NCBI GenBank assembly: GCA_020356105.1
Contig: CP070634.1
Coordinates: forward strand, 267,641 to 315,976
Direction of reading: 5' to 3'
Source of the DNA: Rhodospirillales bacterium
GTDB lineage: Bacteria; Pseudomonadota; Alphaproteobacteria; UBA8366; JADFVY01
DNA length: 48,336 nucleotides
In this document: positions 26,777 through 30,691 of the stretch, one piece after another
Layout: every line of letters begins with the position of its first letter
Position numbering within the stretch: position 1 is the first letter of the stretch
The notes under the pieces: generated by a model
The model's database searches: none
Told to the model about the DNA's origin: nothing
The model's input: the letters and a program-made list of their open reading frames with translations, nothing else
Made by a program: the position numbers and the translations under genes

Positions 26777-27364
26777 CTATGCGTAGGCGACCTTGTGTCC
26801 GGCAAGGTGCAGGAAATTCGCAAGCAGGTCGTGGCCGTGCTCGGTGGCGATGCTCTCGGGGTGGAACTGCACGCCGTGCACCGGCAGATCCTTGTGCTGC
26901 AGGCCCATGATCAGCCCCTCATCCGATTCCGCGGTGACGTCGAAGCAGTCTGGCAGGTCCTCGCGGGCGACGATCAGCGAATGATAGCGGGTCGCGGGGA
27001 ACGGGTTGGGCAGGCCAGCGAAGACACCCTGGCCGGTATGGTGTACCTGGCTGACCTTGCCGTGCATCGGCAGTGGCGCCCGGACGATCTTGCCGCCGAA
27101 CGCCTGGCCGATTGCCTGATGGCCGAGGCACACGCCGAGCAGCGGCAACTTGCCGGCGGCCGATTTGACCAGCTCGAGGCAGATGCCGGCGCGCTCCGGA
27201 TCACACGGTCCCGGCGAGATCACGATGCCGGCAGCGCCGAGCGCGAGAGCTTGCTTGACCGTAATGGCGTCGTTTCGGTGCACGGTCACCTCGGCGCCGA
27301 GTTCGCCGAGGAAGTGAACCAGGTTGTATGTGAAGCTGTCGTAGTTGTCGATTAGGAGAAACAT
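26777..27364 (-). CDS. trpG: Anthranilate synthase glutamine amidotransferase subunit
   Basis: Releases ammonia from glutamine and passes it to TrpE. The 195-residue class I amidotransferase has catalytic Cys79 (GVCLGHQAI), His168 and Glu170 (QFHPES) and the N-terminal [13 protein letters not shown] (3-15). It may also serve folate synthesis (PabA) if no separate gene exists. Normally next to trpE; here trpE is about 5 kb upstream and a divergent copper module lies between, so trpG needs its own promoter (candidate at 27406-27434). Confidence 0.96.
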
Positions 27365-27405: not shown

Positions 27406-27434
27406 GTTATAGCAGGGTTCCGCCGGTCGCGGAA
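27406..27434 (-). promoter_or_regulatory. Candidate promoter for trpGDC
   Basis: On the minus strand TTCCGC (27434-27429) and TATAAC (27411-27406) separated by 17 bases, about 42 bases before the trpG start. The -35 match is weak. No Trp-rich leader peptide was seen. Confidence 0.4.
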
Positions 27435-27462
27435 GCGCCGCCGGGCGAGCAAGCCCAAAACA

Positions 27463-27477
27463 TTCCAGTTTTTGGAA
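27463..27477 (+). promoter_or_regulatory. Upstream CueR-type dyad
   Basis: TTCCA-N5-TGGAA, the same arms as the dyad inside the copZ promoter, centred 30 bp further upstream. It lies outside the copZ -35 and about 30 bp upstream of the candidate trpG -35 on the other strand, so it could be a second CueR site. Confidence 0.45.
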
Positions 27478-27486
27478 AGTTTAGTG

Positions 27487-27517
27487 TTGACCTTCCAGCT
27501 TGTGGAACGCTTATCTC
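27487..27517 (+). promoter_or_regulatory. CueR-type copper promoter of copZ-copA
   Basis: TTGACC (27487-27492) and TATCTC (27512-27517) are 19 bases apart, the long spacer that MerR-family activators correct. Within the spacer is the dyad TTCCA-GCTTG-TGGAA (27493-27507), very like the E. coli copA site. Strong evidence that CueR with Cu(I) activates this module. Confidence 0.8.
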
Positions 27518-27570
27518 TATGCAAATGCGCAAGCAACGGCCGCGTGGCGAGACAGATGGAGATGAACGAA

Positions 27571-27786
27571 ATGTCGCACGATACGGTGGTTTTGAAGATC
27601 GAGGGCATGACCTGCGGCCATTGCGTCGCAAGGGTTCAAAAGGCGCTGGATACGGCGCCGGGTGTGCATGAGGCAAAGGTCGACCTCGAATCGGGTACGG
27701 CCGAGATTCACCTGGACGCCGGCGCCGACCCGGCAACCTTGATCGGTGTCGTCGAAGCGGCGGGCTACGCCGCGCAGGCCGCCTGA
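27571..27786 (+). CDS. copZ: Copper chaperone CopZ-like, HMA domain
   Basis: Small cytoplasmic Cu(I) carrier that hands metal to CopA. One heavy-metal-associated domain fills the 71 residues, with the GMTCGHC metal loop (Cys14, Cys17). Start ATG 27571 chosen because GGAG (27558-27561) lies 9 bases upstream and the size then equals the family; in-frame ATGs at 27556 and 27562 are alternatives. Preceded by the CueR-type promoter and followed by copA after 33 bases. Confidence 0.9.
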   Translation: MSHDTVVLKIEGMTCGHCVARVQKALDTAPGVHEAKVDLESGTAEIHLDAGADPATLIGVVEAAGYAAQAA

Positions 27787-27819: not shown

Positions 27820-30249
27820 ATGACGGCGACGGGAACGGCTGACACCGCCGACCGAGAGTTTGAAAAGGATGCCAGACGCCACGCGCGGCTGCAGGTCGAA
27901 GGCATGACCTGCAGCGCTTGCGTCGGACATGTCGAGCGGGCGCTCAAGGCGGTTCCCGGTGTTGTGGCGGCATCGGTCAACCTGGCCACGGAACAGGCGG
28001 ATGTCGATTTCGCGGATGGGGTCGACGTGGGCGCTCTGGCCGATGCCGTCGAGCAGGCCGGTTATACCGTCCGGCCGAGCGAGATCACGCTTGCGGTGCG
28101 CGACATGACCTGCGCGGCCTGCGTCGGACATGTCGAGCGGGCGCTCAGCGGTGTGCCCGGCGTCGTAGACGCCTCGGTCAATCTCGGCACCGAAACGGCA
28201 ATCGTCAAGGGGTTCGGGGTCGAGGCGACCGAGTTGATCGCGGCGATCGAGGGCGCCGGCTACGGCGCCGCGGTGGCGGAAGGCGGCGTGCCGCGCGATG
28301 CAGCGGAGCGGACCGCGGATCGGCGCGAAATGCTGGTTGTGCTGGCGTCGGCGCTGCTCACCCTGCCGCTGGTCGTGCCGATGTTCGGGGAACTCGCGGG
28401 TCTCGACCTCGCGCTGCCGGGGTTGTGGCAGCTGGCGATCGGGGCGACCGTACAGTTTACGATCGGCTGGAAGTTTTATGTCGGCGCCTGGAAGGCGCTG
28501 AAATCCCTGACCGGCACCATGGATCTGCTGGTTGCGCTCGGCACCAGCGCGGCGTTCGGACTGAGCAGCTATAACCTGTTCTTCGCCTCTTCGGAGGCGG
28601 ATGCGCATCTCTACTTCGAGGCGGCCGCCGTCATCATTACCCTCATCAAGCTGGGCAAGTGGCTCGAGGCGAGGGCCCGTCGCGGCACCTCGGCGGCGAT
28701 CCGCCAGCTGATGAAGCTGCGGCCGGAACAAGCACAGGTCGAGCGCAACGGCGAGGTCGTCACCGTGTCCGCGGCCGCGGTGCAGACCGGCGAGATCGTG
28801 GTCGTGCGACCGGGAGAGCGGATTCCGGTCGACGGCGCGGTGGTGAGCGGCGACAGCGCCGTCGACGAGTCGCTGCTGACCGGCGAGAGCATCCCGGTTC
28901 ACACGGCACGCGGCGACAGGGTCACCGGCGGCAGCGTCAACGGCGATGGCCTGCTGCGCATCGAGACGACAACCGTCGGCAAGGAATCGATGCTGGAGCG
29001 CATCATCGCGCTGATCGAAAGCGCGCAGGCGGCAAAGCCCCCGGTCCAGAGGATGGTCGATCGGGTCACCAATGTATTCGTGCCGGCGGTCGTCCTCGTC
29101 GCGATCGTCGCCTGGGCCGGCTGGCTGCTGGCCGGCGGCACCATGGAAGAGAGCATCATCGCCGCGGTTTCGGTCCTCGTCATCGCCTGTCCCTGCGCGC
29201 TCGGCCTCGCCACGCCGACTGCGATCATGGCCGGGACCGGCGCGGCGGCGCGGGCCGGCATCCTGATCAAGGAGGTCGAGGCGCTGGAGCGGGCCGGCGC
29301 GGTCGATACCATCATCTTCGACAAGACCGGCACATTGACCGTCGGGCAGCCGCAAGTGACCGACCTCGTGCCGGCGGACGGCGTTGATGAGACGCTGCTG
29401 CTGCGCCTTGCGGCGTCCGCCCAGCAGGGCAGCGAGCATCCGCTGGCCAAGGCGGTGCTTGCAGCGGCGGCCGAACGAGGCCTTGCTCTCGAGGGCGTCG
29501 AGGGGTTCAGCCGGATCGGCGGTCGCGGGCTGACCGCGCGGGTTGGCGGCACCGGGTTGTGGATCGGCAATCGCGGCCTGATGCGCGAGGCTGCGGCTGG
29601 CACGGGCCCGCTGGAGGGAGCCGTGGCGGCGCTGGAAGAGGATGGCAAGACGGTGATGTGGATCGCAGATGAGGACGGCCGATTGCTTGGGGCGATCGCG
29701 GTCGCCGATCAGCTGCGCAGGGAGGCGGTCGAGACCCTCGCGATCCTGCACGAGCGCGGCATCGCCGTGGTGATGCTGACGGGCGACAATGCGCGAACCG
29801 CAGCTGCGATCGCAAAGCGGCTTGGCCTCGACGATTTCCGGGCCGAGGTGCTGCCGGCGGACAAGGCGGCGGAAGTCGAGCGAATGCAGGCGGAGGGACG
29901 GGTCGTCGCCATGGTCGGAGACGGCGTCAACGATGCGCCGGCACTGGCCGCAGCCGATATAGGTATCGCCATGGGGAGCGGCACAGACATCGCCATGGAA
30001 ACCGCCGGCATCACTCTGATGCGGTCGGATCCGCGACTGGCGGCGGACGCCATCGACGTCAGCCGGGCGACGGGTCGAAAGATCTATCAGAACCTGTTCT
30101 GGGCGTTCATTTACAACGTGGTCGGCATCCCCCTGGCGGCGCTGGGTTATCTGAGCCCGATGATCGCGGGCGCGGCGATGGCGTTCAGCAGCTTCAGCGT
30201 CGTCAGCAATGCCTTGACCCTGCGTCGATGGACAGCAAAGTCGAAGTAG
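27820..30249 (+). CDS. copA: Copper-exporting P1B-type ATPase CopA
   Basis: Pumps Cu(I) out of the cytoplasm using ATP. The 809-residue protein has two N-terminal HMA domains (CSAC at 31-34 and CAAC at 98-101), eight predicted membrane segments, the TGES actuator motif, the membrane CPC (457-459) that marks Cu/Ag specificity, the phosphorylated Asp501 in DKTGTLT, the HP motif in SEHPLAKAV and [10 protein letters not shown]. The two HMA regions share an exact 28-base repeat (27919-27946 and 28120-28147), showing internal duplication. ATG 27820 follows GAGGAGGGG. Middle gene of a copZ-copA-cueR unit. Confidence 0.97.
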
Positions 30250-30278: not shown

Positions 30279-30298
30279 GCGGTTTTAGGAGAGTTTTG

Positions 30299-30691
30299 AT
30301 GAATATTGGTGAAGTGGCCAGCCACTCCAGTGTCAGCGCCAAGACCATCCGCTATTACGAAAGTATCGGGCTGATTGCCCCGGCGCGTCGAACCGCGAGC
30401 GGTTACCGCACGTATGACGAAAAGGACGTGCAGACCCTGCGCTTCATTCATCATGCGCGGAACCTCGGATTCAGCGTCAAGGACGTGGCGATGCTGCTCG
30501 ATCTCTGGCGTGACCAGAAACGCGCCAGCGCTCACGTCAAGGCGCTGGCAATGGCCCATATCGCGGCGGTCGACCGGAAGATCGAGGAGCTTCAAAAAAT
30601 GCGCGATACGCTGCTCGATCTGACCCATCACTGCCATGGCGATGATCGGCCGGATTGTCCGATCCTCGACGGCTTGGCTGGCGAGCCGTGA
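30299..30691 (+). CDS. cueR: MerR-family copper regulator CueR
   Basis: Cu(I)-sensing activator of copper export genes. The 130-residue protein has the MerR helix-turn-helix at the N-terminus (MNIGEVASHSSVSAKTIRYY, 1-20), a long dimerisation helix and the metal loop Cys112-x7-Cys120, at E. coli CueR positions; Ser77 matches the residue associated with monovalent-metal selectivity. Start ATG 30299 has AGGAG at 30287-30291; a TTG directly before it is unlikely. It follows copA by 49 bases and very probably acts at the copZ promoter. Confidence 0.93.
   Translation: MNIGEVASHSSVSAKTIRYYESIGLIAPARRTASGYRTYDEKDVQTLRFIHHARNLGFSVKDVAMLLDLWRDQKRASAHVKALAMAHIAAVDRKIEELQKMRDTLLDLTHHCHGDDRPDCPILDGLAGEP

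Follow-up and report, generated by a model that had tools for sequence, protein, structure and literature searches.

Promoters governed by the copper sensor CueR usually carry one operator dyad, as the initial annotation of this locus stated and as holds both in the relatives surveyed here and in the literature (PMC1526738). Why, then, does the DNA upstream of copZ contain two? In the window, the entire stretch of 48,336 nucleotides that was analysed, the motif TTCCA-N5-TGGAA occurs exactly as first annotated, at 27463-27477 (TTCCAGTTTTTGGAA) and at 27493-27507 (TTCCAGCTTGTGGAA). The centres lie at 27470 and 27500, confirming the reported distance of 30 bp. These are the only exact copies in the window, where 0.03 are expected, and none of 100 shuffled sequences gave two. 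Throughout the genome (3.86 Mb) the 10-bp palindrome is found at six places, with these two forming the sole adjacent pair; one of the other four belongs to a second CueR-type promoter and three have no such promoter adjoining. Under a first-order model fitted to local composition, the chance of a dyad in the 100 bp upstream is about 2e-5 for the 10-bp form and 0.0024 for the 8-bp form. The locus is organised as follows.

26777-27364, minus strand: trpG, anthranilate synthase component II, the divergent neighbour (trpGDC); TIGR00566 above cut-off.
27406-27414, minus strand: extended -10 of trpG, TGCTATAAC (also given as TGCTATAA); CTGYTATAA conserved in 7/7 family genomes.
27430-27435, minus strand: -35-like element of trpG, CTTCCG; this or a close sequence in the seven genomes.
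27459-27482, plus strand: conserved 24-bp block enclosing the upstream dyad, with AAGTTTCCAGTTTTTGGAAAGTTT as the family consensus; mean pairwise identity 0.867 (n=7).
27463-27477: upstream CueR-like dyad and candidate accessory operator, centred on 27470, roughly -54 relative to the inferred copZ start; exact motif match, top CueR-matrix hit, 7/7 family genomes.
27487-27492, plus strand: -35 of copZ, TTGACC; invariant in the seven genomes, its placement with respect to the dyad matching published CueR/HmrR promoters.
27493-27507, plus strand: downstream dyad, the main CueR operator, in the 19-bp spacer; exact motif match, half-sites invariant in the seven genomes, second-best CueR-matrix hit.
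27512-27517, plus strand: -10 of copZ, TATCTC; TAT in 6/7 and TAC in G002, at the 19-bp position.
27562-27786, plus strand: copZ, copper chaperone, ATG at 27562 or 27571; CopZ-family HMM hits just under cut-offs, CopZ 64-80% identical in family genomes.
27820-30249, plus strand: copA, Cu(I) P1B-ATPase; TIGR01511 above cut-off.
30296-30691, plus strand: cueR, Cu(I)-responsive regulator of the MerR family, last in copZ-copA-cueR; TIGR02044 179 bits, cut-off 147.

The copZ promoter and its predicted CueR operator

To judge from sequence, the downstream dyad is the textbook operator of a CueR/HmrR-type promoter serving copZ-copA-cueR. It had been placed inside the copZ promoter spacer, and it fills exactly the 19-bp gap between TTGACC and TATCTC. 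This arrangement, a palindrome in a 19-bp spacer running from TTGAC to the -10, is conserved in all seven family genomes and is followed by copper-export genes together with their cognate regulator, the copA and cueR products both scoring above the model cut-offs. The cueR gene is the only CueR match of the genome at E<1e-20.

The published CueR/HmrR signal reads ACCTTCCAG-(3)-CTGGAAGG with a 19-bp spacer, the regulator being the second gene in actP-hmrR (PMC1526738). Promoters of copA (actP) of this kind share with copZ the TTGACC, the ACCTTCC..GGAAGG palindrome within the 19-bp spacer and a regulator downstream in the operon (PMC1526738). They are described with one spacer palindrome, whereas copZ adds a second, promoterless one 30 bp upstream. 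The source genome has one further CueR-type promoter (TTGACCTTCCAGCAGCTGGAACAGATA, G000:C1:2553266-2553292, minus strand; L191 and L304), and this carries a single dyad. The gene behind it encodes a c-type cytochrome with a CAACH motif; CueR sites preceding cytochromes have been noted in Vibrio (PMC1526738).

The upstream dyad lies in no promoter spacer of 19-20 bp. No -35 and -10 motifs at MerR spacing were found around it on either strand, none is conserved there in the family relatives, and a promoter scan gave no consensus sites. The idea of a second rightward promoter at the upstream dyad was rejected for want of these elements.

Conservation and character of the upstream dyad

Seven genomes from three genera make up the family set: the source genome, one other of its genus and five from two further genera. 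In all six relatives, whose loci were reached through their CueR matches, trpG is divergent from copZ-copA-cueR. A search of the family with the 45-bp double-dyad pattern found it in 7/7 genomes, with the centres always 30 bp apart, and the reversed control pattern had no match in any of the seven. G000, G003, G005 and G006 have a perfect upstream dyad; in G004 it contains one mismatch, in G001 two and in G002 three. When the seven sequences were anchored on the -35, identity outside the 24-bp block was 0.459 over the 46 bp upstream, 0.357 in the 4-bp linker and 0.350 in the leader. Inside the block, the half-sites of the dyad are 0.893 identical, against 0.459 for the neighbouring 46 bp, and their C-C and G-G are kept in 6-7/7 genomes. 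The GTTTTT centre and the flanking AAAGTTT are conserved as well, the centre reaching 0.844 identity as compared with 0.694 in the downstream dyad. In a rough test that treats columns as independent, none of 100000 draws of resampled background columns attained the identity of the block.

The proviso attached to the original observation, that the upstream copy might not be conserved in close relatives, does not apply, since the block reaches 87% identity, against 46% and 36% in its flanks, and is present in 7/7 genomes at identical spacing. Because it has been kept 30 bp away from its partner in every member of the family, the upstream dyad is probably a real, conserved, lineage-restricted accessory control site.

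Its likeness to CueR operators was scored with a half-site matrix drawn from 87 CueR-type promoter sites. Almost all of these belong to other loci and genomes, and the family's own seven copZ promoters were left out. The two dyads are the best hits in the window, with 19.2 bits for the upstream and 19.1 bits for the downstream copy, the next hit scoring 10.2; the annotation of both as CueR-type in sequence thus stands. Reference CueR operators have a median of 20.2 bits, and the four perfect upstream dyads score 19.2-20.3. Over the family the upstream copies range from 11.7 to 20.3 bits, each of them below its downstream copy except for a tie in the source genome; the three damaged ones have 11.7, 13.1 and 15.1 bits. 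The flanks are less typical: A stands where CueR sites prefer G/C, and the canonical CC/GG flanks are absent. Conservation of centre and flanks beyond what CueR half-sites involve suggests an additional or a different constraint. Two alternatives were kept in consideration because the conserved GTTTTT centre and the A flanks are unlike ordinary CueR sites.

According to the first, the block serves chiefly as an A/T-rich UP-type element bound by the alpha subunit of RNA polymerase, its likeness to the CueR dyad being secondary. Alpha binds between -35 and -60, and the TTTTT and AAAGTTT tracts, kept in nearly all seven genomes, fall within this zone, roughly -45 to -57 relative to the inferred start. 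An A/T element would have no need, however, of the C-C/G-G of the half-sites, nor does it explain a dyad symmetry and a CueR-matrix score far above the window background. The tracts are also displaced by 3-4 bp from the UP consensus, which we counted against this reading. We consider it unlikely.

The second alternative, to which we give slightly less credence still, makes the upstream dyad the operator of a different regulator with a site resembling that of CueR, acting for example on trpG or on both promoters. It would account for the A beside GGAA and for the fixed centre, in both of which the dyad departs from canonical CueR sites. It would also suit the separation of the trpG -10 and the dyad centre (27406-27470), a constant 62-63 bp in 7/7 genomes across sequence only 46% identical. 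Against it, the upstream dyad scores as a normal CueR site, and its 17-bp core has a single occurrence in the genome when up to one mismatch is allowed, with just two more at three mismatches. With the core near-unique in the genome, no regulon is visible for such a regulator.

Paired dyads at other CueR promoters

Among 97 CueR-type promoters of relatives with sufficient flanking sequence, an exact upstream dyad was seen only in this family and in divergent CueR pairs. The cases from outside the family came from a single genus of the order plus one additional genome, at distances of 35, 42, 50, 51 and 53 bp; downstream controls at the same 97 promoters yielded two exact dyads. A survey of the class (385 genomes) found the strict double pattern in four, namely the source genome and three with divergent pairs, and no other tandem case. 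The 30-bp arrangement was absent outside the family in the surveys of relatives, order and class. Since the upstream dyads at the 97 sites were confined to the family and to divergent pairs, we rejected the idea that CueR promoters generally have such a dyad. No second CueR site at a promoter was found in the titles, abstracts and passages searched, which represent an incomplete, open-access part of the literature.

Scanning a named genome collection for paired dyads returned at least 119 stretches (L007-L125). At least 79 loci have opposed TTGAC motifs on both dyads; among the matches listed, the centres are 40-43 bp apart in 16, 50-54 bp apart in 58 and at other distances in five, counts that overstate independence as the loci are often related by descent. 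Divergent CueR promoters set back to back are common across the Alphaproteobacteria and occur in some other groups (L038, L066, L022 and L051 are examples among the matches listed), and intermediate spacings are rare among these matches. The centres fall at four or five helical turns, and therefore neighbouring CueR dimers would tend to one face of the DNA, again among the matches listed. By this predicted phasing, the divergent pairs listed would repeatedly set CueR dimers on neighbouring sites in phase with each other. These pairs resemble the copZ locus in having two CueR-type dyads, mostly at whole-turn spacing (40-43 and 50-54 bp among the matches listed). They differ from it in that each dyad has its own TTGAC facing its own side, whereas copZ has one TTGAC and a distance of 30 bp.

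Tandem dyads on one strand, 24-54 bp apart, are scattered through other bacteria and include copA promoters of Leisingera, Shimia and Paracoccus among the matches listed. They were not taken as support, because dozens of upstream 8-bp dyads are expected by chance, an estimate that assumes tens of thousands of CueR promoters in the collection. Only the Leisingera set looks conserved among the scattered cases listed. In its four related loci (L019, L025, L031 and L043), a CueR-type copA promoter is preceded, at a distance of about 40 bp, by TTCCAGTTTTNGGAA; the titles name Leisingera in three and Nocardioides marinus in one, this last being alike in sequence and perhaps mislabelled. With their similar GTTTT centre, these loci are a possible parallel case. 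Another stretch, L123, has at least two whole CueR-type promoters in tandem (TTGACCTTCCAGTAACTGGAACCTA), 54 bp apart and upstream of a copA-like gene, with a further TTTGACC after them.

The commonness of back-to-back CueR promoters in Alphaproteobacteria, including genus g6 of the same order, raises a third alternative: that the upstream dyad is half, or the relic, of a divergent pair whose leftward copper gene has since been replaced by trpG. The DNA itself makes this very improbable. In place of a second TTGAC on the other strand, the -35 position reads TAAACT here and AAACT-type sequences in the relatives (CAAACT and alike), not TTGACC; no -10 is conserved, and the spacing is 30 rather than 41 or 52-54 bp. 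Lacking a reverse TTGAC or -10 and having the wrong spacing, a divergent CueR promoter, working or relic, was rejected. The outgroup G020, from another family of the order and with the same trpG synteny, points the other way, having a single dyad and less DNA. Its distance from the trpG -10 to the copper-promoter -35 is 51 bp, as against 80 in the source genome. The difference of 29 bp approximates the dyad spacing and therefore fits the gain of a module of about 30 bp in this family, a direction read from this one outgroup. Finally, that the resemblance arose by chance and was preserved by recent common ancestry is hardly credible, for although there are seven genomes from a single family, divergence has brought the flanking spacer down to 46% identity, whereas the block holds a level that no resample reached.

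A possible accessory operator and its bearing on trpG

We favour, with a probability of about 0.6, the reading that the upstream dyad is a family-specific accessory CueR operator which holds a second dimer and tunes the autoregulated copZ-copA-cueR operon. The second dimer would sit next to the copZ -35, on roughly the same DNA face as the first. The initial annotation equated 30 bp with about three turns and had both sites facing the same side; at 10.5 bp per turn the distance amounts to 2.86 turns, some 50 degrees short, so that "same side" is only approximate. So placed, the upstream dimer would cover the stretch bound by the C-terminal domains of polymerase alpha, and may raise local CueR occupancy through cooperative loading, restrict or assist polymerase docking, or do both. 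The operon concerned encodes cueR itself. Here we infer CueR binding to the upstream dyad, cooperativity and an effect on transcription. The spacer-distortion mechanism of MerR proteins is barred to the upstream dyad, which lacks its own promoter elements. Activation by CueR is a matter of DNA distortion, and structures with RNA polymerase place the dimer on one face of the spacer and the polymerase opposite, with almost no contact between them (PMC9909328). The CarA operator of Myxococcus offers a likeness, in that two MerR-family dimers occupy one operator region cooperatively (PMC9304148), as is only predicted at copZ. CarA, however, is the repressor of a carotenoid operon, binding a tandem-repeat region, with no metal sensing and no activation through a 19-bp spacer.

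The same dyad had been proposed to influence the trpG promoter about 30 bp away. A conserved minus-strand promoter is indeed present there, the edge of its -35 lying 27-28 bp from the dyad; it spans 27-57 bp from the dyad without overlap. The dyad centre precedes the inferred trpG start by some 70 bp and falls outside the trpG -35/-10 spacer. These distances make occlusion of trpG unlikely, and direct occlusion was rejected with the dyad 27 bp beyond the -35. Activation of the MerR type drops out too, leaving a class-I-like or shared-module effect as a weak possibility. The constant 62-63 bp may denote a spacing-constrained module of both promoters and the dyad, or indels may simply be rare there; trpG leader lengths in the family run from 25 to 52 bp. 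Another locus, L173 (G030:C510), departs from the rest: trpG and cueR are direct divergent neighbours there, and no copA was found in between. More tentatively, and at odds well short of even, the site could form a bipartite CueR element. Its second dimer, at about -54 and locked in spacing to copZ (30 bp) and trpG (62-63 bp), would couple copper status to the export operon and possibly to tryptophan synthesis. If so, a metal-sensing activator of the MerR family would also act from outside the promoter spacer.

Metal-sensing activators of the MerR family are explained by a single dimer that distorts a single promoter spacer. Were the upstream block merely an A/T element, it would be of local interest only. 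Read as an accessory operator, a conserved second dyad lacking its own promoter would be a variation on a known CueR promoter type. The natural pair of sites, with the half-broken versions of the relatives, offers a test of CueR cooperation or of upstream polymerase contact, and if a further operator is indeed conserved beyond the spacer, a dose-shaping layer would lie above the CueR switch.
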